NCBI RefSeq assembly: GCF_032118995.1
Contig: NC_092650.1
Coordinates: 682,001-746,000, forward strand
Length of the DNA stretch: 64,000 nt
Direction: 5' to 3'
Source of the DNA: Asterias amurensis
Taxonomy: Eukaryota; Echinodermata; Asteroidea; Forcipulatida; Asteriidae
Under the pieces are notes generated by a model, which saw only the letters and a list, made by a program, of their open reading frames with translations, did no database searches and was not told the DNA's origin. Below, in pieces: positions 3,784 through 54,985 of the stretch (position 1 is the stretch's first letter; every line of letters begins with the position of its first letter). The translations under genes were made by a program, and so were the position numbers.

Positions 3784-5533
3784 ATGATGAAATCTAGTAT
3801 CTTAAGAGAAGAAATAATTCTGGTGTCAAAGGGAAAACTCTTACAGTTTGTTGAAAGCCAACACAAATGGGAAGAACTACACTCCGCAGTCAAGTTTCAT
3901 CTCCTGCGACTAGGGGATGATTTCATTCTTCGAATTTCAACCGATTGTCCTGAATCTGTAGTAAGTATAATTTTCTTCTTCAAGGGAAGTCAGGTTGGCG
4001 CAGTGGTGTCTTGCCTCGCCTTCTGCTTCTGAGGAGGGATTCAAATCTTACCGGGGGGGGGGGGGGGGGGGGCACTATGTGGATTGGGTTTTTCAGTCCT
4101 TACTTGAGTTTTTGGGTTTTCCCTGGAACAATTCACTGAGGTTTTCCTCCCACTTCTTAAACTGAAATTTCTTCATTGTCTTCTCACCTTGTAAAGATGC
4201 TGAAAAGGCTTTGTTGACAAGTATTATCATAGTTGTAGATGGCGTGTCATGGCCGACCGTTTAAGTGCACTGAACTCTGGTGTTTCTTATTAGCAGAGTA
4301 TGGGTTCAAGTTCCAATCGCTGCAATTGTGTACTTGAGCAAGATACCAAGTATCATAAAGATTCATGTTGCTTTGTCCTTCGGTTGGGACATTAAGTTGT
4401 TAGTCCTGTGTCTAGGATTGGTGCAGTAAAAGAACCCAGAATACTTATCAGGGCTGACACTCCACAAAGGTAACGAGGGTGATTGCTTCCACGCTCAATG
4501 GTCACTGCCATGGTTCCCTTGAAATGCTCCAGTAGAAATTTATAATTTGCTTATAGGGTGTCCTTTACCACGGAGAAAATGCCTTCGTGCCCTTGTGCTT
4601 TAAAAAATGCAGCAAACAGCAAAATGACCCAATGGAGTTTTTCAAGGATCTTTCTTGATCACAAAAAGAGGGGGTGTCTGATTTTGTTTACAATTTTATA
4701 GTGTATGGATGATACAATAACGATTTTTAAACTGTAAACTTCCTTGTAAGGACGCTAATGTATTGTATTCAGCAATTGAAAAACCTGAAAAAAATGTACA
4801 ATTATAGGAAGAAAAAGTCCAACTGTCGGTGAATGAATCTAGTGAAGACATTGATTCAGTTATAAAGTAAAGGATGTTTTATGTAACAATACTATGGTTA
4901 TTTTCACACCCGATGGGCATAAAGCACTCAGTATTGTCCTGCAAGGCAACCGTAGTTACATTATTAAGTATGAGACATACCTGCTGATCAGAGACATCAG
5001 AGCTACATTAACGTAAGTTCAATGTTCTCATACACTCAGCCCAACATGCCACGATTTTAGAGAAGATTTACTGACCAACCCTGCAGTCTTGTGAATTCCA
5101 GGTCCCAATTTCATGAGCTTCTTAAAAGCGAATCAAGAATTGCTGCTTAGCAAAACTAACCAGGATACCAGTCAATTGTGATATGACATGCGATTTTCTT
5201 GACAAGCAACTTTATTCTGGTTAGCATATTTTTGTTGCGCTTAGCTACTTTGTGTGCTTTGAAGCAGCTCATTGGGCCCTGCTGTGATGTGTAGCACTAC
5301 GATGCTTTAGATAATGAGGTCGTTTTAAAAATGTTTCTTGAATTGTTTCAATCCTACACAGCTTGTTGTGGAGGCCTGCACATCAGACATTGTGGGAGTC
5401 AAACCCATTCTAGAAAAAAGCCTGCAAGTGGATTTGGGAACTGTGAGGTTTTGTCTCCAATTTAAAACCAATCAAGACAGGACACAATTCTCTTTGATTA
5501 TTAAGAATGTACTCGATGAGGTACAGTCCAGAG
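3784..5533 (+). CDS. SHARPIN-like PH-domain exons (5' module of the RBCK1 locus)
   Basis: Two exons (3784-3960, 5362-5533) encode about 116 residues. An in-frame TGA 9 bases before the ATG fixes the start. The pattern follows the SHARPIN N-terminal PH-like domain: hydrophobic strands IILV, KFHLL and FILRIS, then [13 protein letters not shown], then GTVRFCLQF followed by helix [14 protein letters not shown]. Human SHARPIN has GTLSLHF and EAQRWAVLV at the equivalent place. The second exon ends in phase 1 (G). The LTM exon at 10278 begins CT-GGA and stays open back to its acceptor, so the join reads GCT (Ala) in frame. A separate small PH gene is the alternative. Confidence 0.65.
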
Positions 5534-8500
5534 GTGAGTCGGATTGTTTGTTTCTGTTTTATTTGTTTTTTTGTTTGTTTGTTTGTTTGTTTGTTTGTTT
5601 GTTTGTTTGTTTGTTTGTTTGTTTGTTTGTTTGTTTGTTTGTTTGTTTGTTTGTTTGTTTGTTTGTTTGTTTTGTTTGTTTGTTTGTTTGTTTGTTTGTT
5701 TGTTTGTTTGTTTGTTTGTTTGTTTGTTTGTTTGTTTGTTTGTTTGTTTGTTTGTCTGTCTTTGTTTGTTTGGTTTGTTTACATTCATACAGCATAAATT
5801 TAAAGGAACACGTTGCCTTGAATCAGACGAGTTGGTCAAAACAAAAGCGTTTGTAACCGTTTTTTATAAAATGCATATGGTTGGAAAGATGTTTTAAAAG
5901 TAGAATCAAATGATCCACACAAGTTTGCCTCAAAATTGCGTGGTTTTCCTTCTACTGTGCGAACTAACATGGTCGGCCATTTATGGGAGTCAAAATTTTG
6001 ACCCCCATAAATGGCCGATGTGTTAGTCGACGAGGTAAAAGGAAAACCACGCAATTTCGAGGCATGTTTGTGTGGATCATTGTATTCTACTTTTACAACA
6101 TCTTTATATCCATATGCATTTTATAAAAAACGGTTACAAACGCTTTTCAAAGACCAACTCGACCGATCCAAGGCAACGTGTTCCTTTAAAGGTAGGATCA
6201 AAGATTGGTTTTTGTTAATGTAACGTACATGTACATAAGTACATAAAGTGATATCTGGGTCAAATTATCAATAAAGATACATTAATATTAACTTGTGAAA
6301 GTTTTAGATTGAATACAGTGTTTTCATCTGGAATGGAGCCTCTAACTTCATTGTCAAACAATTGGTTTTTATCATGACATCAAAGTGAACTGACCTCCTT
6401 TTCAACTTCCCCCGCAGAAAAATCAGGAGGATTTAACCTACCACAAAATACCAACTACCAAGTCAAAACAGTTTCTCACAAAGCAACCATCTAAAAGTAC
6501 CCCATGTTATCGTGCATTACCGTCAGCAATCTGGGAATTTCCCTTTCCTGTAAAACCCCTCAAACAACTCGTTTGCACAGTTGGTTGGTGATAATCTAAA
6601 ATTAGCAATCATCAGCCAACCAATGATGGTAGGGCCTTTTTAGTTACTGTGGATGGTTTCATTTTAAAGAAGGGTTTACCGTTTTCCGTTTTAGCCGCTA
6701 TGATGTACACATCATCTGCCCAGGATACCTACACATACCCACCCTGTGCATACATCACTAGTGTACGTTTACCATACATACCTGAAACAGTTCTGTGTAC
6801 CAAGTACATTCATGGAATTCATTTACATACAATGTATCTGCTGTGATGATATTTACATGACAACTTGACATTGATTTACCTGCACTGATATAATGGAATT
6901 GCCCAAACACTATGGCACCAGAAAAGTGTCATGAGTGTGCGTGCTCGCCACTGTACAAAATGTGGGTTTATCACATGAACCTTTTACTATCATCGGAAAC
7001 ACGAAGAGTGACACAACTCAACTGAGTACATGCTGGAACATGTAATGTAGTTCACATACTTTGAGATTAGAGTATTATCTGATACAGTTTTAAGCCAGAA
7101 GGTAAGGATATTAAATATTTGCCATTTTGACTTGTCAAATTTATGTATCAAGTAGTCAGGGAAATTAACAATCTACAAATTCATTCATATCATTGTCAAT
7201 CAGAACTACTTTTAAGTGCAAACATCATTTCATGTTGTTGGTGTCAACATTGTTTATTGTAGCCCGTTTGTGTTAAAATTAGTAAGGGTATGCAAGATGT
7301 AAAATGTGCATTTTTCGTAGGTTAGATTTTAGATGGTCTTTGAGCTACAAATGTATATTGTTTTTATAACTAAAAACATAAACTTGACAAAGAAAATCAG
7401 TGTCCATGTACTTTTAATGTAGGTGATTGCAGACCTACAAAGTCTTACACATTGGCGTGAGACTAGCGCCTTAGGGGTCTGTTGGTTCTCTCCCAGAGTC
7501 CCATCCATGGCATTAGGGTTTTCTCTGTGTTCTCATATAAGCTTGGGCGATATCGATTTATTTTATTCACGATATATCGCCGACAATATATCGCGATATT
7601 CGATATAATCGCGATATATATTGAATTTGACATCATCAGTCTTCTAACTCCCATTGAAAGTTGTAGAAGACACAGTCATAGCATAAGAGAGGTGTTCTTA
7701 TGACCTACTCTTCTGGTTTTTCTTCAAACCTATGGGGTGCAAGATGTCTCAGCTAGCAAATACATCGCGATATTTAATCGATATCGCGATATATCGATAT
7801 TACAATTAAAACCAAAACAATCCGATATCGAAATCGTTTCCAAATTAGTATAGCCTTGCTTAAGGCAGTCGAATTATTCACTCCGAAAAAAGACCGCCGC
7901 TGTATAAAAACCCACCCGTATTCACTGTGCGTAAAACCCACCCGTATTCACTGTGCATAACATCGCACGACACGATGCCCCTGTACACTATCCGCATGCG
8001 GAGGCCGTAAGGCCGACAGCCTTGTAGGGTCTGTGTTGAAGCCACTGACCTCATTACTATAATAAGCGAAGAGTTCCCACGGTCAGCTCATTACCATAAT
8101 GCCCGCGAAAGATGAGACATGTCTACATCATCACACACCACCACCACGGACGCTCAGCGAGCATGATAGGCGTGTGTGATTGGACGTTAAAATGAATAAT
8201 TCATTTGACTCACATCCTGTGTTGTCTGATAGGTCTGACGACTGATATACATATTCATGAGCTGCATACTAGCATATCCTAGAGCCCCCCCAATTTCGTC
8301 CACTATTGGAATTTTTTCAAAACAACACATTAAAACGGGAAGATACAGACCCGACAAGGCTGTCGGCCTGACGGCCTCCGCATGCGGTTAGTGGTGTACG
8401 AGTGCGATGACTTGTGTGAACAGTATTCGTGCAATGTGACAGTGTGTATACGGGTGGGTCATTCGGTGTGATCGCACACACCATGCACAGGGTATACGGC

Positions 8501-11500
8501 GGGTGGGTTTACAGCTGCGTCTTTTCGGAGCGAATAATGCGACTGCCTTGAGCAAGGCTAAAATTAGTATCGCGATATTCGATAATATCGTGATATCGCC
8601 CAAGCTTATTCTCATATCATGAGTGCATTTTGGCGGTCGTAACCAATAACTGTTTTGGTTGAGTTTACCATTGGTAAATCAGTTGCCATTGACCGAAACG
8701 GTTTTTGGTAATGACTGCCAGATCGCACCCCATGTCTACATCTCTCCCATCCAGTTCTAAGCAATAGCAACCATTGACTGTTGATTTAAAAAAGCTGCAA
8801 TATTATGTTTATCTGCAGCAGAACAGAAGTACAGTAGGCCTACATAGTTTGCTTTCAAATTTAATAAAGTCAATTGGTTTTAGAAACTGCAGACTGCAAT
8901 TCTCAGAGCCGGTAAAGTTGTAGGCAATGTATCTTAGTTTTGCTGCTTGCAATCTGTTATGTGGTTAGAAAATGAATGCACACAATATTTTATATTTTTT
9001 AAATGTTTTCTTCACTTTCTAATGAGCCATGTCTATCTAAAATGTGTATCAATTCTCCAAATAACTTTTCCATTTCAAAAAGTCACAGTTTTTCCTATTG
9101 TTTTTTTGACTATGGACAATCATGGAATGTCAAGAAAATAATAACACTAAGACATTTGTAAATCGTCTAATGCAAAAAGCCTCTAAGCGCTCAAAGAGAA
9201 CAACAAAATAAACAATACGAGATAGATACAAGATACAAATAAGCAAATTACAAAAAAGCAGCTTTAAACAAATGAGTTTTCAAAGAACTAGCTTGGCGAA
9301 TATGCACAGGAAGACTATTCCAAAGAAACGACTGCTTCCTCTATTATAAAGAGTTATCTTTAGGTCCATAATGCTAGTATAGTAGGTAGTTTGGTATTGT
9401 ACGTCATACTTCCTTTAACAAAATAACTATAAATATGTACAGGTACAGGTGCTTTATGTTGGCAAAACAAATTAATCAGACATTAATTAGGGCATGTTTA
9501 CTTTACTAGTGACTGTTATTAACATATTATTAAAAGGATACACAAATTTACTAAAAATGTTCTTTGCATATAATCATGTGGATTGTTGGCCATACTGTGA
9601 TGTCTTTATCTTGTTTCACTTTCACATTTGGATTTTGAAGTTTTAAATACACGGCGCTACAATCATGAATACATGCATGCATAGTAGCTCTATTGTACAA
9701 GTAGTGTATTTTGGTTAGGGAAGCTTGCAAAATTCTTGCAATGTACACACGGACTAGCGATACAAATTTCAGACTAGTCTAAATTTAAGTTGAGTAGTTC
9801 GTCTGGCAAAAGTAAACAAACAAACATAATGGTATTTGGGAAAGCCCCTGAACAAAACGCCCTTGCCCTTTTCACACCGTATCTCTTATCCTCATGAACA
9901 CGGAAAAGCCCCAGGAGTTATTTTTACCCATTGGTTACCGTGCCGCACTGTCACACTGTCCCCGCCTTCATGTAGACCTCTATTCCACAGGGATCCAGTT
10001 GCACATTTCAAAGAGGGTTTTTACAGTTTTCCCTACTCAAGAACATGGGTTGGTATTCCAAAGTGGTATGGAGCCTTCCACGAGTAGTTAAAGGCATGAC
10101 ATTTTGACCTAAGCAGAGTCTTTCTTGAAGGCTAAATAACAACATTACAAATGAAATAAGTACTTGGGAACGTCTGTCATACACGTTGAAATTCCACGAT
10201 GTACGATGCCGATGTGAGTCAATGTATTCATACAACTAGTTACAATTTGTTTGTATTTTCTTTGTTCATTGTTACAGCTGGACTATTGAGGCAATATTCT
10301 CCTGCAATGGCGATGCCAAATACCAAATCTACCAAAGGAGCAGACATAGGTAAGGAAATAATTGCAACAAAGGTTTCACTAAATAAACTAGTTTATGGAA
10401 CGCTTGGTATTTTATGGAGCCACACCCTTTACATAAGCCAGCCTGTGGAATGATTTACTTGAAGGCAACAGCCTCTGTTTGCCCTGGGCCCAATTTCATA
10501 GAGCTGCTAAGCTCACAAATTTGCTTAGCATGAAATTTCTTCCTTGATAAAAACAGGATTAACCAAATTTCCATTTGTTGCATATTGCTTGTTACTAGTA
10601 TTCAGCTGTTGTTTGCTTATCCTGTAAATCATGTGAAAATTTGGTTGGTACTCCTGTTTTTATCAAGGCAAATATTTATGCTTAGCAAATTTGTGTGCTT
10701 AGCAGCTTTATGAAATTGTGCCCTGGTCTTGTCCCTGGTCTTGGCCATGTTGTCCCTTCCATTGGAAACCTCCATCGGAAGTCCTCTTTGCAAAATGAAG
10801 TGGCCTTTCACTCTCAAAGGTGAAATTTTCACTAGTACAGCACGCAGGAGTTTTATGAAATTCCATGCATGATTGGTCAATGAAACACTCGGCTGAATAG
10901 ACAAAATTCAACGATTAATGTACATGTACATGTAACTCAAAATCAAAGCCGGAAGCCAGCAAACTCTATTTGAAACATCTAGCACTCAGAATTATATGCA
11001 CTTTACGTTTTCTAACTCTCTGAATTCTAGGAAGTAGCAGTTTTTTTTATAATATTTATTTACAGCGCATAAGGGACATGTTTAATCACTATGAGTTATG
11101 TGCTATATAATAATGGTTAACCAATTGTTATTTTTTATTAGATATTTGAAATACTGTTTTGTCATTCTGCAGAAGCGTTAATTGAGAGCATGACGAGGGC
11201 TATTGCAAGTGGAGATTGTGAATCAGCGAGTCATGCAGCAGTATCACTAGCTCAGCATAAAGTCAAGTTGAGCACCCAAGCTGATGAGATTGGAGACGTG
11301 CCTGGTAATCGCAGCAAATTTAAGTAAGTCTTACCCCCATAAGCCTTCATGATATAACAGACACAATGCTACAACACTAGAAGGTTTGGGTTAATTTGTG
11401 TGTATACACCAAAACCAAACAGTGCACTCGTATAGCGTCCGCCATACCTCAAAAAGGCTTATTGAAAACTACAAATTTTTGTGCTTTCAGATGCCTAAAA

Positions 11501-14500
11501 AAATATAGCAAGACTTCAGGCCCAAAGCCTTTTAATATTTGAGTGAGAAATTCTCTCTTTGTCAAAAACTATGTTACTTCAGAGAAAGCCTTTTCCCACA
11601 ATCAACAGCTCTCCATTGCTTGTTACCAAGTAAGTTTTTATGCTAATAATTATTTTGAGTAATTACTAATGTTGTCCAGTGTTTGTAAAGGCACAGTTGT
11701 CATGACCAAGATGTAAACCTACTTTCTGATGACTCAGGGATGATGAATCTTTCAAAACAAAAAGGGCTTTCATACAGGTCGAAATGGTTCAATTATGTAT
11801 TTCGAATTGATCTATTACTTTTCCTCTTGTATTGTTCTTACAGCCTCGATGTAGTTCTAGAAGATCGGCTTTCATCAGGAACTAAGATCAGACTACCAGA
11901 TGTCATTCCCAACATGACCATCGCATACTTAAAGAAATTGGTAAAAACTTTTCCATGAACTTTGCATTACTCTATAGCAAAAAATAATCGGTGTGCATGA
12001 CAGTAGAGACGTCCCTGTGCCAATTTCAGAATAGTTAAGTGGTCGTGCGAATGCGAATGCGATGCAAATGAAGTACAAATTTCGACATCACAAATTTTCA
12101 ACGAACAATTGGAAAGAGTTGAGATGTGCACACCTCCTGCAAAACATTCGCAGCGCTGTGGCGTCAAAATTCACTTTACATATGAACTGGGCTTTACAGG
12201 CATGACAGATTAAGGAATAGCAAGGGTCTGCCCTTAACTTTTACAGTAATGAGCCAGAGGTGCTTGCTTGCTTAAGTCGAGTGGTGTCCTCGAATCACAG
12301 TGGTTCCCCAAGCCTTCCTGTCCCCCATGAAATCTGTTGATTCAAGTCCCGTGTCCTTTTTGAGAATGTCGGTGTAGGTTATTGACGGTCTACTAGGTTT
12401 CCTCCTCCCATGCTTAGAGTTCCACAGAACAATAGTGGACACTGGTTCAACACTAAAACAGCCAGCTGGACCACTTAGAGTGAATTTTCTCTGGTCCTCA
12501 GATGTTTTTAATTGGCATTTGGACGTCGGACAACAGTTAAGGGAGAACAATGGCGCGGAGTAGATTGAGGAAAATAATGAGGGGAATTTCTACTTTCACT
12601 GATCGTGTTTACAGTGATAACTGTTTTGTCTTCCGGCTAAGGTTTTCCAGATGTATGATTTCCCAGTTGAAGTGCAACGCTGGATAATCGGACAGAAGAT
12701 CATCAAAGACACCGAGTCGCTGATAGATCTACGAGTCAATTCCAGCACCCCAGTCTTCATCTACCTCATCTCGGCTGAGAAGGCTGGTATAACCAGACAA
12801 GGGGTTGAGGTCGGCAGACAGGCTTTATTGGAAGAACGGCAACAACGTAAGCTTCTATTTCAAGTTTGATGGGGTATAATTGTGAATGATACTGATGTCA
12901 TGGGGAACAGTTTAAAGGAACTGGACAATCTTTGGTAATTGTCAAAGACCAGTATTCTCACTAAATTTATCCCAACATAAGCATAAAATAACAAATCTCT
13001 GAAAATTTTGTTTCAATTGGTCATCGAAGTTGCAAGAGAATAATGCAAGAAAAAACACCCTAGTTGCACAAATTTGTTTGCTTTCGGATGCCTACAAGGC
13101 TTCTTTCAGGCCTGAAGTCTTTAATATTTGAGTGAGAAATCACATTACTTCCGAGGGAGCTGTTCCTCACAATGTTTTTTACTATCAACAGCTCTCCATG
13201 GCTTGTTACCAAGTAAGTTTGTATGTTAATTATTATTTTGAGTAGTTATCAATAGTGTCCGGTGCCTTTAAAGCATCAAATTCAATCTTGGTGGTTAACT
13301 CTGTCGAATCATATTTCCCCAACATGACTAATTTGTGAATAAGATTTTTGAGGATTTTGTGACTCGCTGAAGTAATTCATTCATTCATTTCATTCAATGG
13401 TTTATTTTAAAAATCTATTCAATTCGCTGCCAGCAGCAGAATTACATGAACAGTTACATAGTTAAAAGTTTGGAGTAAAACATGACATTACTATTTAAAA
13501 TGGCCTAAATCTTACACAGAAAAACGGAGAGGGAGAAGTACTGTTCACTCTAATAGGGAGGAGAACAGATACTTAAAATTAATTAGTTAAACATCCATTG
13601 CTTCTTCATTTCAACCTTGATTAAAACAAACCCACCACTGTTACATCCAATCCATCAACCCTTATAATTTGATTGTCTTTCCACCTCAACAGAAGCGCTC
13701 TTTCATCAAGTTGGCAATGCCAGTATGTTTGCGCCACCACCATCCGTCATCAGGACAAATCTTCTCGGCAGAGTACCCAAGAATGACCTGCCGAATGTTG
13801 TCCCATCTCCGGCTCCTACAGCTGCTCCACCTCCAAGGAAACGCACTGCAGCGGAAGTAAGTGTGTCATTCTCTCCAAGGGACTTACTTTCTTCTTGCCC
13901 TCCTTACGTTCCAGCAGACTTAAAGTTCTGTACAATTAAAAAGAAGATGCTGTGCAACAAACAGTTAGAATTTTTGCCAACACCAAGTGTCATGAGTGGG
14001 CTTGTCTAGTTCATTCGCAGGAAGTACGAACCGAGCGTTACACAACACACGGGGCCTATGGTTTCATGTCCGATCCAGAGGATGAAGCAATAATGATCAA
14101 GTGTCTTGCTTAAGGACGGGACTCGAATCCACACTCTGCTGTGCTGAGCAGAAACACCAGAGATAGAGTTTGATGTTCTTAACCGTGTTGCCGTAACACG
14201 CTACAATAAGGTTTATCACGATTCAGAACTGCAATGCGTTGTGGGTAGGCATGTGGGGCAGTTTGCTATGCGGTGTATGTTGTCATGTACGACTCGCGCA
14301 CGCATCGCCTATATCTTCGTGTGGGTTCAACAGCTCTCTCTTGATATTTTGCTATTCGCAATACACCTTATGAAGAACATTTCTGTTTGGTATACTTTTG
14401 ATTTTACATTTGTTTTGTGTTTCTTTCTTTTACTTTGACAAAATATGAAAAAGTGAGCTCTCTACTCCAAATAGAAATCATAACTTGATATGTTTGATCA

Positions 14501-17500
14501 TTGCTTATCATGTATTATACCTTTTGTAATTGTGTTTATTATTCTAGGTAGGCTGGCACTGCCCTGTGTGTACCTTAATTAACCCCCCTAGGGTGCCGGG
14601 GTGTAACGCCTGTATGACTGAAAGACCAGATGACTACGACCCACCAGCTGTGGGCTCCTACATTATGGATGATGCTGAGAAGAGAATACAGGATGACCAA
14701 GATCGCAATGATGCCTTGATGATGGAGGTGAGTTGTCTGTTCTGAATACGCACCCTAAGATTTTATTTCTCTGTATTGAACCGGAAATCCAGGGTAGTTT
14801 TTAACCCCCCCCCCCCCCCAAAAAAAAAAAAAAAAAGAATAAAAGATAATAAATAATTAATAAATAAATTAATAAATACATAACAATAACGGGGAGAAAA
14901 AATTCAAACTGCCTCTAACTACTGGGCGATCTCGGTGCTCTAATAAAATAACACAGCATTTAAAAAACACACTTTACTAAAACAATCAAAGCCACGGTCA
15001 TCGTCAGGAAGAAGTTTAAGATTAAGTAAAAGTATTGTCAAACTGTGGGGAAAGCAAGCAGAAACAAGAGTGTTTTAAGTTTCTACTGGCAGAGAGTGAT
15101 GTGCATTTGGCTGAGGTCTTCAGGAAGTGAATTCCAGAGTCTTGATGCTGTGTTGGAGTAAGCCCTGTCCCCGTAACTGGCCAGGCGAGTTCGAGGAACA
15201 TGGAGTGTATTGCTGATAGATAGACCCCAGGTCTTGGGTTCGAATCCAACCTGGGTAACATGCCTGTGATTTTTTTTTCAAAGAGCTCGGGCAAGTACTG
15301 AGGCAGTACTACAAACTCACATGTAAAACACGTTGTTGTATGTGGTGGGTAAAGCCAAAATTAATATTATTGACATGTTTATATTTAACAAAAATAAAAA
15401 AATTCAAGAGGACTATATGAATTATAACAACAGTCAAAAATAGTGAAACTAGGTAGCAGAAAAGACTTTTCTTAAAAAAGTTGCTGACGGCTTTAAAGAC
15501 GAAACTTTGGTAAACAAACAAACAGAATCCTCGGGGAATAGGTATTAAATATCAGCCACACACCAATGCTGACCACAGTTTATTTGAACAAAAGGGAATA
15601 CAACTTGTTACGGAACTGAACTTAAGAAGTGTAGATTAGATTAAAACTGGCACCAAGTGATGTCTGCTTAAAATATGATAATAATTTAATTTGATGGTCT
15701 TCGTTAAAGTGACGATGAAAGTGCTGATGATGACAGTGACAATGACAGTGCTGTTTATGGTAGTGTTGATGACAGTGCTGATAATGACCGTGACGATGAC
15801 AGTGCTATTTGTGGCAGTGTTGATGACAGTGACAATGACAGTGCTATTTATGGCAGTGTTGATGACAATGCTGATAATGACCGTGACGATGAGAGGCTTA
15901 TGATGATAATAACAATGACAGCACTGATAATGGCAATGACTGTGCTGTTGAAGACAGTGACTCTGAAGTGCTGATAATGACAGTGACGATGACAGTGCTG
16001 ATAATGACAATGACAGTAGGCCTACTGACACTGTTTGGAACACTGTAAGTACTCTCACTAATGCTGATCTACCAAACAACACACGATCTGGTCTGGTTCC
16101 CTGCCCCATCAACTAATGGTTTTTATATCTGAAATCAAGTCAAATCTGAAATCAAGTCTGCCTTTTGTTGGCTTACATCAGAACCATAATCGAAAGGAAG
16201 GGATACTATTGTTCACATGGTCCATAAATAAGCCTTGATGCAATACTTCAGTTGAGTCACCAGCCATTGTGAAACCAATCACTGTGGTTAATTCATCAGG
16301 CTGGTTTCTCGCTATGCTGAAGTCCAAAGCAACTTCAGAAAGCCATTCTGAACAGTATATATCTGGACTGATCCATTGTTCATTTCTTGCTTTGTCCCTA
16401 TATTATAGGGTCTTCAGGGACCAGACCAGAACCGTGAAATGTTTGATGATGACATCGATGAGATCATTAATGAGTTTGAGGATAGTATGACTTGAGGTGC
16501 ATGGACCGATACCAGTGCTGCCATCTCGCCCTGATTCTACAGAAAGTTCCCTCAAAATAAATCAACCTTTCCATGTTCTGATGAGCAGATATAAACAAGA
16601 TTTTGGAATTTTGCCCTCCTTGTGTAGAATATTTTTCTAAATTTATCCCAGATTGTTGCCTGAAATCTCCCTGATTGCAAGTTCAAATGATTGCAGCTCT
16701 GTCGTAACCTTCCAGGGCTTGATTTCACAAAGCAAGAAAATTCATTGTGAGACAAATTGCCAGTATCACCATAGTGATTTGTATTGTGACATCACACTTT
16801 GCTTAGCAACTACAGTTGATTTGCAGGTAAAATCAATCTCAGTTCTTTGTGAAATCGGCCCCGTGTACATCTCGTGTTTTATGAAAGTCTGAGGCTGTGT
16901 TTGAATTGATGGTTTGAACAGCGACTATGGCCGGATCTCTTCAGAGGTACATTCCTCGTCAGCGTCATTGCAGCTGGCGTCCAAAGCCTTAGCTGATTAT
17001 TACAGTTGCCGTCCACATGAACCAAGTTCTCTATTTGATGGACTTTTGTTTAACTTTATTGAGCAAAAGGGTTAACTATTAGTACACAGCTGCAAAACTA
17101 ACAAGTGCCAGGAGGACATTATTGTTCTCTTTAGTTAAAAAATGTCTTTGTTTCAGTCAGGCAGATAAACCTGACTGTTTAAGTAGTGAAACAGTTTGCT
17201 GACCCAAATTGTGCTCATTGTCTATTTCATCAAGTTAATTGTGTGTGAATTGAGGACCAACTTTATGTTCTGTAAATTTCTTGCCATTACGTACATGAAC
17301 TCAGTCATTTGTAAGCCAATCTGGAAGCCTGTCAACATGCAGCACTTGGCAATACATGCAGACAATTTAAAAAAGTTGAAACTTTTAAACTTTTACAAGT
17401 TCTGTTGGTAGTCCTGGGATTACGTGTAGGCTAAGGCTGCTGTTGCCCCGTTCTTGGCCTTGATGCCCTTTCAAGAGGTTCTTATGGACTTGAAAGTCTC

Positions 17501-20500
17501 TAATGGAATTTCCTTTTTTTATTTTCATAATGAAATTGGGGGTGCCTTGTGTCTTGGGGAAAAAAAATGTGGTTCTTTTAATCACTAGAAAAAGTGTGTT
17601 TCTTTCATCATTCCAAAGTTTACTAAGTGTCCTGACATTTCGACCTCAACTAGCAGAGTCTTTCCCAAAGGCTTAATGAGAAAAGCCTTTGAGAACGACT
17701 TTGCTAGGGTCCAAACACAAGGCTACCAACTACTGTGAATTTTGCATTTATACCATAGGCTCTTTTGGTTGGTAAGCAGTTTGCAATCAGCTAATTCTAT
17801 TTTCTCATTCCTTTCAAAATTGTTAGGGAAAAAAAACCACACAAAATAATCAGCCGATGCACGCTTCATCAGTGGTTGATGGCCAATGCAAGGGGTTTAA
17901 ACTGCATTAGATCAAGTGAAAGAAATGGTGCAATTGTGTTTTAAAAACACGAATCAGGTCCCACTTTCATGGGACTGCTTAAACCAGAACTCTGCGTTTA
18001 CGACTCCTAGATGCCCAATAGCACCACACGTTTTACAGCGGGCCATGAGCTGGGAGTTCTGTTGGTTTAAGAAGAGCCATGAAATTGGGCCCATTGGCAA
18101 ATTTTACTTAATTTTATTTTTTGGTTTGTTAAAAACCAGTGTATATAGTATGTATGTATGGACATTTCTAGATTTATTTTCTAATTACTGTTATGGATGA
18201 AGGAGGAGGGGGATTGGAGTGGGAGTCAGTCTTGGCAATTTAAATATTGTTTTGTTCTAACCTCGGATGGTGGGATTGCAGCCCTGACTACCATCACTAT
18301 AAGGATTTCAAAATCATTTTGTATACGTTCAGCCAAATTGTTACCAATCGTGAATTTTTGCATACTACTAGTGTGGCTTATTTTAAGCAACAACTGCAGT
18401 ATCAGAAGTTTTCAGAGTTTTAACCACATTCCAAGGGGGGGGGGGTGCCTTGCACAGCTGTGTACTGGATCTAATTAAGCATTTTCTACATATTTTGCGC
18501 CACTAACTCTGCTTAGCTGTGTTTATGAAATAGAAACTCTGATAATGCCCGCTCTGTAAGCAGAAAATATCTGCTTACAGGCTTTATGAAATGGGGAACT
18601 GGGTCATCACTACTTTACGGCCTATATGCATCAGAACTAACGCACTCTGCTTGGCAGGAAGTTTATGTTTTGACCAAAAGTCAAAAAGGGCATTGTGTAT
18701 TATCCATCTAGAAAAATCTTTTGATGTGTCACAGAAAATGTGAAATATTCAACCTCAATTACAAGTATTTTTAATAGAAAATACCTTAGAAAAGTAGAAA
18801 AGATCCTTTGTGGTTTATTCCTTGATATTTGAAATAATAAAGTTGTCACCCGATAAGGTGATCCCTCTGCTGCCCTTCCAAAGTTGTATCGTCTGTAAAA
18901 CTCTGGTGTAATCCCTGACTATCCCAAAACAAAGTTATTCACAAAATAACATAGGGCTACAATCCTAACCATATCTCGTTGGAACCCCTGACACTAAGCC
19001 CTCTTTCGCGGTCTGCGCTCCCATCAACATTGAGCGGGGGAGAGAAAGGGTGGCCCAAACATTTTTGTCGGGATCGTAGATAGCTAAGTTGGTAGAGCAC
19101 CAGCCGTCGATTTCACAAAGAGTTGGGACTCGTCTTATCTCGAGTTAAGACGAGTAACTCTTCCTAACTTAGGATTAATCTTAAGGTCTGCATGCTACAG
19201 TGCAGGGCTGGGACTCGTCCCAAGTCCTAAGATTAATCCTAAGTTAGGAAGAGTTTTGTGAAATCGACGCAGGACATTGCTGGTTCAAGTCCTGCTCTAG
19301 TCAATGTTCTTTGTTCAATTAGAAGAACATGAATGTATTATTGTAAATAACTATTGCTTATGTTTACTTAATATTGCTAAACGGTCTTCAAATTATGTTA
19401 CTCAGAACTGAAATACTATATTAAATATGAACATCAATCATTGTTTCATTTATTTGAGTCTATGTGAATGAATTTTTATTTGTTGTTAGTATTTATTACC
19501 CCATGTGGCTTGGCATGGCCCATCTTTTATTGGTCGTACATGTGCAATTGAGGACACTTTTTAGTACATAAAATTAAAGATTGTACATGTACATTAGTGA
19601 AGCTTTTGGAATACATAAAATATATCACACATATACGACTTTGGCAATGAAAGAGTTATAAAGAAATTAAAATTATTTGTTTGAAGCACTCTTCAAATTA
19701 ATGGCAATAACAACATTTAGTTAGTTAAGCCCGGTTCATACTTCATGCAAACGCGAATGCGCAGCAAATTTGATGTGAATTTGACGTCACATCCTCCTTT
19801 CGCAACGATTATTCGCAAGGGAGTAGAGCAGAGTTCAACTGCTGCGAATTGTTCGTTGCGAATTTGTGACGTCAAGATTCGCTTCGCATTCGCATGAAGT
19901 ACGAACCGGGCTTTAGCCTACTGCAGCGTTTGATAGTACAAAGCATTTTTGAGAAACTTTTTACTTTGAAGTTACATATATGTAAAAGGATAACAGTTAT
20001 ACGCCCCAAAATTTGAATCTGAGATTAAAGCTTCTCAGATTGTGTATACTATTAAGGATTATTCTTCCTGTGTCAACTTTTTGTTCCAGATTTTCGATTT
20101 TCGTTGCATTTTCTGAAAAATGCAACCACCTTTTTGAAATGAAATTTTTAGACGTTGCGTTTATTGTATACCAATATAAAATGTTCAAAAAAAAAAATAG
20201 GGACACTGCCAATAAAGAAATAGATGGCTCATTTGGTACAGCGCCGGCACGTTAATCCGGAGGTCGTTGGTTCAAATCCCATTCTGATCAATTCTTTGTT
20301 CAACCCAAAAATTCTTTTATTCTGTACATCCACATTTATAAATGGATTAAACAAATTAAAAGGTTTCACAAATTGTATTTAGTAAATACATCTTTTGTTT
20401 TTTGGTTTTAATTCAGATGGAACGGCAAGAGAAGATAAATGAGCAGAAAGACCGAGGTGCAAATTACCAGATGCTGGTAGAAACAGATGTAATGTCTTTA

Positions 20501-23150
20501 GTACCCAACACAGAGATGTTTCAATGTTTAATCTGCTTCGGGGATATTCCACAGGGGGAGGGAGTCATGCTGAGGGAATGTCTACATACATTTTGCAGGT
20601 GAGAAAGGTGTTGACAGTTTTAGGCAAGGGTTCTCTTTATATTAGACCTGATATTAAACGGTGGTAACAATTTGTTTGTTGGGGTGTTTGTTTGTTTGTT
20701 GGGAGGGAGGGTGTCGCAGAGGGCTCCTAGCTCATTTTGGTGTCCCAGGGATATTTGTCGCTGGAGAGTCTGTCCCCCTTTTGGAAGTTTTCACGGGCCC
20801 AGGGAGAAGGATTTAAAAAAGGGCGCTATCAGAAAGAATTTTGTACACAGCTCGCTGTATTTGGGGGACATAATCCCCTGCTACACCGGCACGATAATCC
20901 AGGGTTCGTTCGTTCGAGTCGCGCTGCAGTAAATTTTGTTCAAACCCAGAACTTTCCCTAACTTACCCATCAGTCAGTTTCCCTTGTGGTTTATTTACTT
21001 GGCATGTAATATTTGAGTATAATTCCTCCGTGCCCCCTAGTCATTACCTTGGTGCCCTTGAAATGCTCTTGTAGAAATTTACAAATTCCTCAAAGGGTGC
21101 CCGATATTAACCAAGGAGAAAATGTCTTGGTGCCCTTGCTCTTTAAAAAACAAAACGTACAGGCCTGACAACCACACCTTGTAGTTTAGGGTTTGAGATG
21201 CTTCACCAGATTTTAAGTACACGCTATTGCCCATGGTCATTGCCTTGGTGCTCTTGAAATGTTCCACTAGAGCGCCCTTTACCAAGGAGAAAATGTCTTG
21301 GTGCCCTTTGCCCTTTCAAATACTAAGCATCAAGGTCTATAATTCAATGTCTTTAATAAATCTCAACAGAGAATGTCTACAGGAAAACATAAGACACAAC
21401 ACAGAGCCTGTCATAATGTGTCCATACCAAGACGGAGACTACAGCTGCCCGGAAGTTATTATAGAAAGAGAAATCAAAGCGGTAGGTAATTTTTGTTTTC
21501 TTCTGATTAATGGGTTTGGATACTTTTTGTAAAACACAAAAGACGATGTTCAAAGATGGTTTGAAGATAATGGTAGAAGGCTTCCCTTACAATATTAATT
21601 GCTGGGGTGCTGTAGTTTTTCAGAATTGAGTAAAACAATGTCACAAAAAAAAGTGTTGTCTCCGAAGCCGAAAACTATTCTAGGACAAGGTACAATATCC
21701 TAATGCGACTCTTCTGAAAACATTGCTCTATGTTATTTTCAAATTTTTTTTTCCAAAAACTTGATGACAAATTAAGCTGAAACTTCCTACTAATTTAAAA
21801 AGGAAATGCTTTTTATATTTGGCCAACAGCTGGTCGGACCCCAAGAGTTTCAGCAGTATTTGAACCGAGGGCTAGCAGTAGCGGAGAATCAGGCATCGAA
21901 TGCCTTCCATTGCAAAACACCAGATTGTACAAGCTTCTGTTTCTACGATGACAACATTAACTTCTTCCCCTGTCCGGTCTGTAATAAGCAAAACTGTTTG
22001 ACGTGTAAAGCCATCCATGAAGGAATGAACTGTAAAGAGTATCAGGAAGATTTACTGAGGAGGTCCGCTAATGATCAGGCAGCAAAGAAGACTAAATTGA
22101 TGCTGGAGGTAAAGTTTTATTTTATTTTGAATCATTAGATATATCATTCCTGCTTCCTTTCAACCTCATTTTATTAACCCCCAAAGAATGTTACTGTTTA
22201 CTTTTAAGACACTGGACACTATTGGTAACTGTCAAATACCAGTCTTCTCACTTGGTGTAAATACACCAACAGACAAATACATCTTTGTAACCACCAATAA
22301 TTTACTTTTGAAATTAATTTTGTTTGCTAGAAAATGATCAAAACTGGTGAAGCGATCAACTGCCCTCAGTGTGGAATCATCATGCTGAAGAAAGAAGGCT
22401 GTGATTGGGTTAGATGCTCAATGTGTAAAACGGAAGTGTGTTGGGTTACCAAGGGACTCCGGTGGGGACCAGCGGTGAGTATATTTAATAGATGTTAAAT
22501 TTGCATCGTGGATGAAGAATATTCATTTTGGTTTTACCCGTATACACCGATAAGTGTTAGCAGTACTTTCCCAAGCTCTGTGAACAAAATATCACAGGCA
22601 CATAACTCTGGTGGGACTCGAACCCACGACCTTTGCAATTCAAGAGCAGTGTCTTACCAACTAGACCACAGAGGTGGCTAGCAGCAGTTTGAATCCTATG
22701 GATTATTTAGTGGCTGGATAGCCAAGCTAACATAGAGGCCTGATTACGAGAGTGGCTGGCCTAACTGGATTGTTGAATAGCTAGATGGCTAGCTAAATGG
22801 CTGGTTTCTCCATGTTGTGAAAAGCTAGCTGGTGCCCAGCTTTTATATGCAGCTGGCTGGCTGGCTTGTTGGCAGAGCTTTTTGTAAAGCTTGGTGGCTA
22901 GCTGACTGGTTGGCTTGCTGCCTGGCTGGCTGGCTGGCTGGCTGGTTAATAAGGGATTCTGTAAAGCTGGGTGGTTAGCACAGTTTGATGAAAAGATGGG
23001 TGGCTAGCTGACTGGCTGGCTTGGTGCTTAGCTGGCTGGCTTGCTGGCTGACTGGTTAACACAGCTCGCTGTAAAGCTGGCTGGCTAGCTGGCTGGTTAG
23101 ACCAGTTTTTTAAAAAGCTGGGTGGCTAGCTGACTGGCTGGCTTGCTGCT

Positions 23151-23181
<31 letters not shown>

Positions 23182-23535
23182 TTAACACAGCTCGCTGTAA
23201 AGCTGGGTGGCTAGCTAGCTGGCTGGTTAGACCAGTTTGTTAAAAAGCTTGGTGCCTAGCTGTCTGGCTGGCTGGTTAACACACCTTGCTGTAAAGTTGG
23301 GTGGCTAGCCCAGTTTGATAACAACTTAGTGGCTACCTGACAGGCTTTCTTAGGCTTGCAAGCTACAGTGATTAAGTTTACTTATGAGGCATCTTTGTTT
23401 CATTGCCAGAAATATAATTCTAATCATAATTTATTTTGATTTCTTCCTCTGTAGGGAAGTGGTGATATAACAGGTGGATGTAAATGCCGAGTTCAGGGGA
23501 GGAAGTGTCATGTAAATTGTCAGAATTGTCACTGA
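3784..23535 (+). CDS. RBCK1: RBCK1 (HOIL-1) RBR ubiquitin ligase with upstream SHARPIN-like PH exons
   Basis: Predicted exons: 3784-3960, 5362-5533, 10278-10349, 11173-11323, 11844-11940, 12651-12846, 13693-13856, 14548-14727, 20417-20598, 21370-21481, 21830-22108, 22331-22474, 23455-23535. All junctions are GT-AG and phase-compatible, giving 668 aa. An ATG at 10307 would give a 542-aa form without the PH part (human HOIL-1 is 510 aa). Order: PH-like ~1-116; LTM ~141-185 ([14 protein letters not shown]); UBL ~191-288 (QRWIIGQ); NZF ~346-365 (W-x-C-x2-C-x10-C-x2-C); RING1 from C440 ([12 protein letters not shown]); IBR ~502-590 ([16 protein letters not shown]); RING2 with catalytic Cys about 623 in [11 protein letters not shown]-terminus CQNCH as in human. 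In vertebrates HOIL-1 is a LUBAC subunit that makes ester-linked ubiquitin. The NZF has TL where human has TF. RBCK1 identity is very firm; the PH fusion is inferred from intron phase and similarity. AATAAA lies at 24241. Confidence 0.9.
4241..4460 (+). mobile_element. tRNA-derived SINE, family A
   Basis: An A-box-like TCATGGCCGACCGTTTAAG and a B-box-like GGTTCAAGTTCC are followed by the family's body (TGTACTTGAGCAAGATACC). Related copies lie at 14070-14205, 38936-39282, 44674-44790 and 50206-50480. Here the copy runs into a second repeat (TGCCTTCGTGCCCTTG family) after about 4460. Confidence 0.6.
4485..4615 (+). repeat. Interspersed repeat (CTTGGTGCCCTTGAAATGCTCC family)
   Basis: A sequence of about 90-130 bp recurs at 21045-21150, 21225-21315, 47520-47620 and 61870-61975. 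It shares TGCCCTTGAAATG, CAGTAGAAATTTA and ACCAAGGAGAAAATG. Two TTGGTGCCCTTG blocks flank the core. It is a dispersed non-coding repeat of unknown class. Confidence 0.6.
5100..5281. mobile_element. Fold-back element, GGTCCCAATTTCATGAGC family
   Basis: The left end GGTCCCAATTTCATGAGCTT is inverted at the right end as AGCAGCTCATTGGGCCCT, with a CTTAGCAAAA-rich interior. Other copies are at 10484-10726, 17957-18092 and 30704-30896, with decayed relatives near 18500-18605 and 41440-41530. This is a non-coding MITE family. Confidence 0.7.
5560..5772. repeat. (TTTG)n microsatellite
   Basis: About 48 tetramer copies with one 5-base interruption near 5671. It starts just inside the intron, about 25 bases after the donor of the second PH exon. 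It opens long low-complexity frames on both strands (CLFV or TNKQ repeats), which are not genes. Confidence 0.95.
5800..6189. mobile_element. TTAA-bounded fold-back element, family A copy 1
   Basis: A nearly complete palindrome of about 390 bp runs from TTAAAGGAACACGTTGCC to GGCAACGTGTTCCTTTAA, centred on CAAAATTTTGACCCCCAT near 5995. TTAA at both ends suggests TTAA target choice as in piggyBac-type elements, which is inference. Two further copies lie at 49043-49432 and 49475-49855. No coding capacity. Confidence 0.8.
6418..6494 (+). CDS. Possible alternative terminal exon giving a PH-only product
   Basis: A strong acceptor (CTTTTCAACTTCCCCCGCAG) is followed by 25 codons ([15 protein letters not shown] and onward) and TAA. 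It accepts phase 1, matching the PH exon that ends at 5533, and would give a 141-aa protein. No donor in the exon would keep frame with the LTM exon. No strong poly(A) signal was seen close by, so it may be a chance open stretch. Confidence 0.3.
7538..8608. mobile_element. hAT-like non-autonomous element (interrupted)
   Basis: It begins TAAGCTTGGGCGATATC and ends with the exact reverse complement, flanked by the 8-bp direct repeat TTCTCATA at 7530-7537 and 8609-8616. Eight-base duplications and GGGCGATA-type ends fit hAT-derived MITEs. The interior is rich in TATCGATA-like palindromes. About 720 bp of its length is a second element inserted at 7851-8560. No transposase is present. Confidence 0.8.
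7851..8560. mobile_element. Mutator-like (MULE) non-autonomous element nested in the hAT-like element
   Basis: Long inverted repeats start TAGCCTTGCTTAAGGCAGTC at the left and match the reverse complement of the right end with one change in the first 21 bases. Homology continues discontinuously for about 200 bp (CACCCGTATTC, CCGCATGCGG, AAGGCTGTCGG blocks). A 9-bp direct repeat AAATTAGTA flanks it (7842-7850, 8561-8569). Long TIRs and 9-bp duplications are the MULE signature. No transposase frame is seen. Confidence 0.75.
10484..10726. mobile_element. Fold-back element, GGGCCCAATTTCATA family
   Basis: The ends GGGCCCAATTTCATAGAGCT and AGCTTTATGAAATTGTGCCC are inverted. The inner arms CCTTGATAAAAACAGGA and TCCTGTTTTTATCAAGG are perfectly complementary. 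It lies in the intron just after the exon containing the short-form ATG at 10307. Confidence 0.8.
12912..13271. mobile_element. TTAA-bounded MITE, family B
   Basis: It starts TTAAAGGAACTGGACAATC and ends AGTGTCCGGTGCCTTTAA, with an interior of AACAAATCTCTGAAAATTT and CAGCTCTCCATGGCTTGTTA. A full relative lies at 53292-53655. Partial relatives lie near 11450-11700, 22205-22330 and 43085-43232. It is non-coding and sits in an RBCK1 intron. Confidence 0.75.
14070..14205 (-). mobile_element. SINE family A, reverse copy
   Basis: On the minus strand the tRNA-like head is at the right end (GTGTTGCCGTAACACG region) and a B-box-like GGATTCGAGTCCCG complement lies near 14125. CAAGTGTCTTGCTTAAGGAC matches the reverse complement of the family body. 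It is preceded at about 14010-14045 by a fragment of the CGCAGGAAGTACGAACC MITE family. Confidence 0.5.
15690..16015. repeat. Imperfect minisatellite (GATGACAGTGCTGATAATGA)
   Basis: Degenerate 9- and 18-base multiples built from GATGACAGTG, CTGATAATGA and GTGCTATTTATGGCAG fill about 320 bp of the intron between the NZF exon and the alternative last exon. It opens low-complexity frames on both strands that are not genes. Confidence 0.8.
16409..16495 (+). CDS. Alternative last exon: SHARPIN-like short isoform (PH-LTM-UBL-NZF)
   Basis: The acceptor TTTGTCCCTATATTATAG precedes 28 codons and a TGA. The phase is 0, exactly as needed after the NZF exon that ends at 14727. The peptide is acidic: [15 protein letters not shown], then [14 protein letters not shown] canonical AATAAA follows at 16556-16561, 61 bases after the stop. 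Splicing here would end the protein before the RBR and give 431 aa from the PH start (human SHARPIN is 387 aa) or 305 aa from ATG 10307. Rodent RBCK1 is known to have an RBR-less splice form (RBCK2), so truncation by splicing has precedent. An unrelated short exon remains possible. Confidence 0.6.
   Translation, partial: GLQGPDQNREMFDDDIDEIINEFEDSMT
16556..16561 (+). terminator. Poly(A) signal of the alternative last exon
   Basis: AATAAA lies 61 bases downstream of the TGA at 16493-16495, at a spacing usual for a compact 3' UTR. It is the main non-coding support for a transcript ending here. Confidence 0.5.
17957..18092. mobile_element. Fold-back element, GGTCCCACTTTCATGG family
   Basis: The left end AGGTCCCACTTTCATGGGAC is inverted near AGAGCCATGAAATTGGGCCC. 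AACCAGAACTC and GAGTTCTGTTGGTTTAAGAA form inner arms. Same family as 10484-10726. Confidence 0.6.
19076..19320 (+). mobile_element. tRNA-derived SINE, family B, interrupted by a MITE
   Basis: The A-box-like TAGCTAAGTTGGTAGAGCAC (19081-19100) and B-box-like GGTTCAAGTCC (near 19283) belong together. They are split by a fold-back insert at 19106-19268. CTAGTCAATGTTCTTTGTTC follows, as in the copy at 20216-20312. Confidence 0.6.
19106..19268. mobile_element. Fold-back MITE inside a SINE
   Basis: The ends GTCGATTTCACAAAGAG and GAGTTTTGTGAAATCGAC are inverted. GGGACTCGTC blocks and CTAACTTAGGATTAATCTTA inverted against AAGATTAATCCTAAGTTAGG form the stem. A relative with TTCACAAAG ends occupies about 16716-16862. 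Confidence 0.7.
19726..19914. mobile_element. Fold-back MITE, AAGCCCGGTTCATACTTC family
   Basis: AAGCCCGGTTCATACTTCAT at the left is inverted at the right as ATGAAGTACGAACCGGGCTT. The stem includes TTCGCAACGATTATTCGC-like and TTTGACGTCACA blocks. A second good copy is at 53044-53232 and a decayed one near 12034-12190. Confidence 0.8.
20216..20312 (+). mobile_element. tRNA-derived SINE, family B
   Basis: The tRNA-like part has GATGGCTCATTTGGTACAGC, GCCGGCACGTTAATCCGG and B-box GGTTCAAATCC, followed by CTGATCAATTCTTTGTTC. It lacks tRNA 3' pairing and has SINE tail sequence, so it is not called as a tRNA gene. A further decayed copy is at about 20875-20945. Confidence 0.6.
22610..22675 (-). mobile_element. 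tRNA-like SINE head, reverse
   Basis: The plus strand reads GGTGGGACTCGAACCCACGA then CTTACCAACTAGACCACAG. The reverse complement gives a B box GGTTCGAGTCCCACC and an A box TGGTCTAGTTGGTAAGAC. It lies in the last RBCK1 intron beside the CTGG minisatellite. Confidence 0.45.
22735..23345. repeat. CTGG/GGCTAGCT minisatellite in the last RBCK1 intron
   Basis: Runs of CTGG tetramers alternate with larger repeats of roughly 130-140 bp containing GGTTAACACAGCTCGCTGTA, AAGCTGGGTGGCTAGCTGAC and GGTTAGACCAGTTTGTTAAA. Two to three larger units are recognisable between 22960 and 23300. Confidence 0.85.
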
Positions 23536-29300: not shown

Positions 29301-30685
29301 CAGGAGAAGAGGCTACCCAGAATGCTGATGTAGAGAAAGCTGGTAGAGATGAGAAGCTAGTGAAGAACGCCCTCTTGCTTCTCTTTACGATCGATGTGAA
29401 TGAAGAGAAGGAAGAGGAAGAGGAACTTAAAGAGATTGAGCAGGCGATGAAGAGATTGAAGGAGAGGAGATTAAGAAAGATGCGGAATATGATGAGACAA
29501 CAGCGCTTCCGTATCGGTGCTGGTGTTGAAGATCAAGTAATCGCGGCGTTCACCCCTTCCGGAAAAGAACAGCCTACAGCCCAAGATGGTTCATCAGAGA
29601 GCATAAATGTTACTGAGGAAGATTGCATGCACACTGACTCCAACCCGGTTGAAAATAACGAATCCACTCACACTACCCCTAACCAAGAAGAACGCGAAGA
29701 AACTACACAAATGCACACGGACCCAATTGCGAATAACCCAAATGGCGGTGTGAGCGTCAAGGAAAATAAACCCGCATGTAATACACCGATTGAAAATGTT
29801 CCCACCCCAAAACAGACAGTTGATGGCAGTGGTCCAGCCTCAAAGACTGAACCATTTGAAAATGGTGGCCCAAGTTGCGCAGTAGCTAACCCCCCAGACT
29901 CTATTTCAAAAGTATCAACAGAACCTAGTTCTGTGTCAAACTCGACTGAGGAACCTGTTGAAACGTCGGCCTCAAGAAACACCACAAATTCTTCGGGTTG
30001 CCCAGTGGAAATAGCAGAAGTTAAAAAACCAACAAGAAATTCCTCAACAGTTTCTTCATCGACCGTGACATTAATACAAATCCATAGTGAACGCAATGAT
30101 AGCACACCAACAAACAAACCACCGATGGAGAAAAGTGAACCAAAAGAAGTTGTCTTAAAAGACAAAGCTAAACAAACTGCATCATTGCCAGTCACAGATG
30201 AAACAATACCAAAACAGAAAGATGAGAACACCAAGCACATTAACAAATCATCTCCGGCAAAGAGCAACGAACCACTTAACAAAAACCATCAAGGTTCTTC
30301 AAAGAATCGCGCACATGAAATGTTACCAGAAAACAAAGCTACCGCAGAAACTCAAGCTACCACAAAATCCAAAGCTACCAAGAAAACTGGTTACAAAGAG
30401 ACCTATCAAGAGCGCGAGTCAACGCCTGCGAGTCCAACGAAGCAGACAGTTGTTGCTGATATTTCAAAAACGGACCACGTGCAAACAACGACAAAGTTGG
30501 AGAGGGTAAACATTGACTCTGATGTCTTGTCTTTACGAAGTTTCCAGTCCAACACCTGTTCAAACTCCAGTGATAGAGTCCCTCGTGGTAAACGGAAGGA
30601 AGAAGCGTCTGCTGAGACCGAAAAAGGTCGTCAGAACACGGTACCACTCAAGGCCATTCTTGTCCAAACTGTAGACATCGATTGA
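26305..30685 (+). CDS. Predicted single-pass membrane protein, long disordered tail (unrecognised)
   Basis: Two exons are proposed: 26305-26533 (phase 1, donor GCTG|GTAAGT) and 29046-30685 (acceptor TCTTTTAATTGGCAG), giving 622 aa. Exon 1 ends in a hydrophobic stretch FVVAVLCLWTFVAGLTQA with a good signal-peptidase site (TQA|ES), after an unusually long basic N-region of about 57 residues. Next come a short Ser/Thr-rich ectodomain with N-glycosylation sequons (NAS, NST) and a transmembrane segment FYSMLLFVLVPITAYLTATL. A Cys-containing juxtamembrane stretch (IICPVEK, GSFCCPKY) follows. An acidic-then-basic helix (about 190-225, EEEEELKEIEQAMKRLKERR) precedes about 390 residues of Ser/Thr/Lys-rich low-complexity tail ending AILVQTVDID. 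No family is recognised. Exon 2 is firm as an open frame; exon 1 rests on phase and the signal-like sequence. AATAAA lies at 30836. Confidence 0.6.
26534..29045 (+). other. Intron of the unrecognised membrane-protein gene
   Basis: 2.5 kb of AT-rich DNA with no supportable exon. It includes a short hairpin AGAAACGTTTCTTTATTAACG / AACGTTTCTC near 26955-26990 and a run of about 10 G at 28734-28743. A T-rich tract at 28790-28808 precedes the acceptor of the next exon. Confidence 0.35.

Positions 30686-50567: not shown

Positions 50568-54985
<4,418 letters not shown>

Follow-up and report, generated by a model that had tools for sequence, protein, structure and literature searches.

A sea-star gene with a PH-superfold domain before its LTM and a HOIL-1-like RBR, best read as a co-orthologue of SHARPIN and HOIL-1

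A predicted gene with a probable second 3' end

The linear ubiquitin chain assembly complex (LUBAC) is described as one catalytic and two accessory subunits, and the accessory subunits differ in their ends, SHARPIN, an immune regulator in humans, carrying a PH domain and its partner HOIL-1 an RBR. Here, we analysed a stretch of 64,000 nucleotides from the sea star Asterias amurensis (positions 682,001 to 746,000 of the forward strand of contig NC_092650.1, assembly GCF_032118995.1; hereafter the window, whose own numbering we use) in which one predicted gene, RBCK1-like by the public name of its Asterias rubens orthologue, has a PH-superfold domain at one end and an RBR at the other. Thirteen GT-AG exons with matching phases, at 3784-23535 on the plus strand, encode a protein of 671 amino acids with the order PH-LTM-UBL-NZF-RBR, where LTM stands for LUBAC tethering motif (Table 1). 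An in-frame stop at 3775 lies immediately 5' of the ATG at 3784.

The spliced product is matched over its full length, PH included, by isoform X1 of the RBCK1-like protein of Asterias rubens (P0001), an orthologue of the same length and 96% identity that differs at 24 of 671 residues, the PH part accounting for 6. P0001 and the other RefSeq proteins used here are predicted models. A second relative, P0004, is an open frame of 428 amino acids on a contig of 4045 nt, with 83% identity to the window product. The join of exon 2 to exon 3 is present in both. Since P0001 matches the spliced translation and the PH and LTM segments are joined alike in P0004, the PH-LTM-RBR model is more than chance, and on these sequence comparisons the PH and RBR exons are one gene. 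This bears out what the first-pass annotation had claimed: P0001 places PH and RBR in one gene, P0004 also supports the PH-LTM join, and the phases agree, the GT-AG exons of the PH ending in phase 1 at 5533 and the exon at 10278 accepting phase 1. Some details had to be revised. The annotation gave a protein of 668 amino acids, and it put the LTM in the exon at 10278, which is a linker, the motif falling in the exon after it. It had also overlooked an alternative last exon.

Pfam recognises the LTM, NZF, RING and IBR in the window protein. The LTM precedes the UBL (PF25393, E 2.6e-7, 30.9 bits for a cut-off of 27.5) and the NZF is recognised as well (PF00641, E 2.3e-7). The UBL match, spanning 11875-12746, stays under the Pfam cut-off (PF00240, 19.7 bits versus 25.4). 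Among PDB sequences, the LTM-UBL region matches both SHARPIN (5y3t_C, E 1.2e-14) and HOIL-1 (5y3t_A, E 6.9e-14), and residues 406-671, which include the RBR, match HOIL-1 8eaz_A (E 1.1e-103). Pfam reported two IBR stretches and printed just the one in RING2; we assign exon 11 to the IBR, and the region of the bird protein P0007 that aligns with this exon is the best IBR stretch of P0007. Cys621, the presumed catalytic residue of RING2, sits in a GCDW motif, as does Cys458 of P0008, a protein of 508 amino acids that we take to be mammalian HOIL-1. Mouse HOIL-1 C458S is described as inactive (PMC9016349).

The second 3' end branches off after exon 8. Immediately 5' of 16409 there is an acceptor for a further exon in phase, and splicing exon 8 to this exon would give a PH-LTM-UBL-NZF form of 434 amino acids without RBR. 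P0004 has this very junction, and its tail is identical to that of the window in 20 of 25 aligned residues. The segments that make up P0004 cover 12.7 kb of the window, versus 4045 nt for its contig, which is thus most likely a spliced transcript. Three AATAAA motifs lie between the short-form stop and exon 9 (16556, 18836 and 20211); use of the one at 18836 would give about 3.7 kb plus the 5' untranslated region, which fits the P0004 contig. To judge from contig size in one relative, splicing of the sea-star gene probably also yields a short product of SHARPIN type. Searching with the short form returned five proteins, among which P0004 alone has the short tail while P0001 and two further starfish proteins run on into the RBR. 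The remaining one, P0017, runs on through an unspliced exon 3 and gives no further evidence.

The short form might instead be functionless noise of splicing or premature polyadenylation, which we consider rather unlikely. It is known from one relative only, with a contig that is most likely a transcript, and no other such protein occurs among the five matches; these points count against a functional short form. The likeness of the two tails speaks against noise. A mammalian splice variant of RBCK1, RBCK2, which reportedly inhibits the ligase activity of RBCK1, also speaks against it. So does a mollusc: for Aplysia, it has been proposed that an HOIL1 isoform without the TRIAD region (XP_035825204.1) may be functionally analogous to SHARPIN (PMC9334734). 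There, as in the sea star, one gene would give an RBR-less SHARPIN-like isoform besides HOIL1, the likeness being drawn on the lack of the RBR.

The N-terminal domain and SHARPIN

Structure prediction from sea-star sequences alone places a PH/EVH1/RanBD superfold before the LTM. AlphaFold 2, given the A. rubens piece with four sea-star sequences, returned seven strands and a C-terminal helix at a predicted local distance difference test score (pLDDT) of 89.7. A full-length model of P0004 had a mean pLDDT of 51.6 and was poor everywhere but in the PH.

Is this domain the PH of SHARPIN, which has been described as 'unique' (PMC11322871)? Several results weigh against it. The nearest solved structures listed are EVH1 and Ran-binding domains, and the SHARPIN PH structure 4emo is not among the 50 structural matches listed per search. 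Pfam finds no Sharpin_PH (PF16764) in the PH part of the window or in the four sea-star PH pieces. Direct profile comparison of the sea-star PH with 71 vertebrate SHARPIN PH pieces (those of 120 proteins that passed the cutting pattern, 49 being dropped) gave P 0.16 versus 0.14 for the reversed control, and single vertebrate pieces barely exceed their own shuffles against the sea-star PH (mean 12.3 versus 10.7). When the vertebrate profile was scanned over the six frames of the window, exons 1 and 2 were not among the matches listed; its top frame, at 34576-34746 (E 0.094), is unrelated. Once the hemichordate sequence had been added to the profile, the exon 2 frame ranked second (E 0.64).

This hemichordate protein, P0006, carries Sharpin_PH and an RBR in the same architecture as the window gene. 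Its PH matches the vertebrate SHARPIN PH at 1.2e-10 and the sea-star PH at 3.6e-5, and none of 300 shuffles did as well. Furthermore, the proteins of sea stars, the hemichordate and vertebrates all have the domain in one and the same position, ahead of the LTM. We therefore argue, by way of this single hemichordate protein, that the sea-star PH is homologous to that of SHARPIN. An EVH1- or RanBD-like domain acquired independently in sea stars would account for the structural neighbours, the direct comparison and the silence of Pfam, yet the hemichordate bridge and the shared position speak against it, and we regard it as improbable.

Two public models, of a brittle star (P0005) and a frog (P0010), begin just 5' of the LTM without a PH. 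Both are labelled isoform X2 and may be PH-less isoforms.

The vertebrate pair and its proposed common ancestor

The SHARPIN and HOIL-1 sequences of vertebrates came together as one clade in both of the trees built (support 99/99 and 100/100), and the ambulacrarian genes fall outside it. Approximately unbiased (AU) tests rejected grouping the latter with SHARPIN (p 3.4e-5 in tree 1 and 0.0018 in tree 2) as well as with HOIL-1 (2.4e-5 and 0.0013). Because the ambulacrarian genes branch outside the pair and neither grouping is accepted, the window gene is most readily taken for a co-orthologue of both, as it stood before their duplication. The trees comprised 15 of the 120 SHARPIN-type sequences listed and four HOIL-1 sequences. 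The homologue search with the window protein had given 16 matches, of which P0004, P0010, P0015 and P0016 were kept out of both trees and P0014 also out of tree 2. Tree 1 retained part of the PH columns; in tree 2 the sequences were cut before the LTM, one (P0081) at the wrong place. A point on the other side is that the root of both trees depends on one or two long-branched outgroup sequences. These long branches and the few HOIL-1 sequences hamper deep placement and would leave some room for orthology with one vertebrate gene alone, if echinoderms had lost the other. However, the AU tests reject one-to-one orthology with SHARPIN alone or with HOIL-1 alone in both trees, and such a history is very improbable.

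Least probable of all is a small gene of their own for the PH exons, with the join to 10278 an artefact: 4.7 kb separate the PH and linker exons and public PH-less models exist (P0005, P0010), but P0001 and P0004, the latter on a 4-kb contig, both join PH to linker, exon 2 ends at a phase 1 GT donor beyond which the frame reads into a TTGT repeat, P0122 joins PH and RBR, and we rejected the reading on P0001, P0004 and the donor.

Vertebrate SHARPINs alter the picture. A search with a hummingbird 'sharpin' gave 557 matches, and 112 of the best 120 carry Sharpin_PH (counted by hand from the listing, in which a species may have several isoforms or records). Among these best 120, 102 combine Sharpin_PH with all three RBR motifs (RING1-like, GCDW and, at the C-terminus, CxNCH), eight are without PF16764 and 11 without at least one of the three RBR motifs; these may be partial models. 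The named entries are from birds, turtles, lizards, snakes, amphibians, coelacanth, gar, sturgeon, teleosts and sharks, with no mammal among the 119 named. Naturally, this survey of animals is partial, as the searches scored those candidates that shared most words with the query, 7995 for the window protein and 7989 for the hummingbird one. P0122, on a contig of 2990 nt, has PH and RBR ends in one frame. The hummingbird PH matches 4emo (2.1e-10), and proteins of this type thus belong with SHARPIN. The bird protein P0007 matches HOIL-1 (8eaz_A, 1.1e-124). The order PH-LTM-UBL-NZF-RBR, with its RING2 cysteine, is common to the window gene and these non-mammalian SHARPINs (P0007, P0120, P0106). 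The latter differ in being a paralogue that arose by the duplication, which teleosts as a group have besides HOIL-1 (the two having been sampled in different species), and in a PH that Pfam recognises.

Mammalian SHARPIN is described as a protein of 387 amino acids with PH, UBL and NZF (PMC9084887). The short form of the sea star matches its PH-LTM-UBL-NZF set, whereas the long form adds the RBR; and in mammals the set is the product of a separate gene. The RBR-less state is taken from that review and our sample contains no mammalian SHARPIN sequence, which counts against the comparison. Vertebrate HOIL-1/RBCK1 has in common with the window gene the order LTM-UBL-NZF-RBR, the RING2 cysteine and a cysteine-rich C-terminus; the PH in front and a branching before the duplication set the sea-star gene apart. 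To judge from the sequences, HOIL-1 lost the PH and the SHARPIN lineage of non-mammalian jawed vertebrates kept PH and RBR; when this is put beside the literature, the RBR was lost later, in the SHARPIN known from mammals. The split was completed after the duplication, since sharks, bony fishes, amphibians, reptiles and birds keep both ends in SHARPIN. The duplication itself appears to predate the separation of sharks and bony vertebrates, because the SHARPIN clade takes in the SHARPINs of sharks but not HOIL-1 (four HOIL-1 sequences, none from a shark).

The first-pass annotation had seen an undivided ancestor whose ends were split between the vertebrate genes after duplication. The inference of an ancestor stands with the trees. 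The clean split does not, HOIL-1 having lost the PH and SHARPIN having kept both ends outside mammals. A wider survey, which it had proposed, yielded PH with RBR in the hemichordate, from a sample of one hemichordate and one named mollusc. We recognised no report of a SHARPIN or HOIL-1 with both PH and RBR in the open-licence literature, judged mostly from titles and listings; the architecture is already visible in public databases, in the sequence entries and in the Pfam labels attached to them.

Two other proteins are of note. P0014 (866 amino acids, on a jgi contig of 2776 nt) is HOIL-1-like in its UBL, NZF and RBR; its LTM match is weak, and a CAP-Gly domain takes the place of the PH at the front. 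P0016, from Diamesa serratosioi (presumably an insect of the fly order), is a HOIL-1-like RBR protein, though Drosophila has been reported without HOIL-1.

A possible one-gene accessory subunit and the features around it

We are fairly confident that the sea-star gene represents the common state before SHARPIN and HOIL-1 parted, with two probable 3' ends; it would serve a linear-ubiquitin ligase as a subunit alongside HOIP. Directly supported are the gene model, the domains, the conserved RING2 cysteine, the position in the trees and the presence of PH and RBR in non-mammalian SHARPIN models. One gene would then provide the PH-LTM-UBL-NZF-RBR subunit of the complex, and the choice after the NZF exon would decide its kind: joining 14727 to 20417 would give the long form, which has a catalytic RBR like that of HOIL-1, and joining 14727 to 16409 the short form with the SHARPIN domain set. 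The LTMs of mammalian SHARPIN and HOIL-1 are described as co-folding into one domain, and their UBLs as binding two sites of HOIP (PMC6044281). Should there be only one gene of this kind in sea stars, its LTMs, identical in sequence, would have to pair with one another, as long-long, short-short or long-short, and how many HOIL-1-type RBRs a complex contains would depend on the ratio of long to short. The short form could even activate, by displacing an RBR, because weaker ligase activity of HOIL-1 is reported to augment linear ubiquitin signalling in mice (PMC10967397).

The vertebrate history would follow: the gene was doubled, HOIL-1 dropped the PH, SHARPIN kept PH and RBR, and the mammal-type SHARPIN dropped the RBR. 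More tentatively, SHARPIN might be by ancestry a ubiquitin ligase, so that LUBAC of fishes, amphibians, reptiles and birds would hold three RBRs (of HOIP, HOIL-1 and SHARPIN), sea stars would set the number of accessory RBRs by the choice of 3' end in one gene, and mammals would have made the SHARPIN-like short form permanent when one duplicate was stripped of its RBR. The sea-star gene is of interest in having the ends of both accessory subunits in one protein outside the duplication, as a possible one-gene route to two domain sets and as an indication of what the SHARPIN/HOIL-1 gene may have been before it. These data also suggest that a SHARPIN without RBR is not the vertebrate norm. The SHARPIN of chicken or zebrafish may itself ligate ubiquitin, and results obtained with the mammalian protein may not transfer to these species.

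The window also has, on the minus strand, a gene of the MDM2-binding protein and a methyltransferase frame, and there are three tandem arrays, the TTGT run after exon 2 among them, and two tRNA matches (Table 1).

Table 1. Exons of the predicted gene and other features of the window
Feature	Position	Strand	Remarks
Coding exon 1	3784..3960	+	start codon and first half of PH superfold domain, residues 1-59; GT donor, phase 0; matches P0001 and P0004
Coding exon 2	5362..5533	+	second half of PH superfold domain, residues 60-116; AG/GT borders; ends in phase 1
Coding exon 3	10278..10349	+	PH-LTM linker, residues ~117-140; phase 1 acceptor; frame open back to 10190
Coding exon 4	11173..11323	+	LTM, match 11190-11279, residues 147-176
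Coding exon 5	11844..11940	+	first part of UBL; GT-AG, phases match
Coding exon 6	12642..12846	+	remaining UBL; matches PDB HOIL-1/SHARPIN chains 5y3t, 2lgy, 4dbg
Coding exon 7	13693..13856	+	proline-rich linker; GT-AG, phases match
Coding exon 8	14548..14727	+	NZF zinc finger plus the stretch after it; phase 0 at its end, from which the two 3' ends diverge
Alternative last exon	16409..16495	+	28 residues and stop; AG acceptor, phase 0 frame
AATAAA	18836..18841	+	candidate poly(A) signal of short form; one of three between short stop and exon 9
Coding exon 9, long form	20417..20598	+	linker and start of RING1
Coding exon 10	21370..21481	+	rest of RING1
Coding exon 11	21830..22108	+	IBR region
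Coding exon 12	22331..22474	+	RING2; codon of presumed catalytic Cys621 at 22400-22402
Coding exon 13	23455..23535	+	cysteine-rich C-terminus and stop of long form
TTGT run	5544..5780		tandem array; begins 10 bases past the end of exon 2
tRNA match	20218..20290	+	weaker, 34.2 bits; 5' of the RBR exons
tRNA-Ser (TGA)	22603..22675	-	within an RBR intron
Open frame	29039..30682	+	548 residues, stop-free; no Pfam match over cut-off
Tandem array	31800..34733		unit of 55 bp, ~53 copies
MDM2-binding protein gene, frames	37517..37918 and 43295..43675	-	match MTBP_C (5.4e-14) and MTBP_N (2.2e-13)
DREV methyltransferase frame	50571..50885	-	Pfam match, E 5.4e-20
Tandem array	58687..59227		unit of 17 bp, ~32 copies
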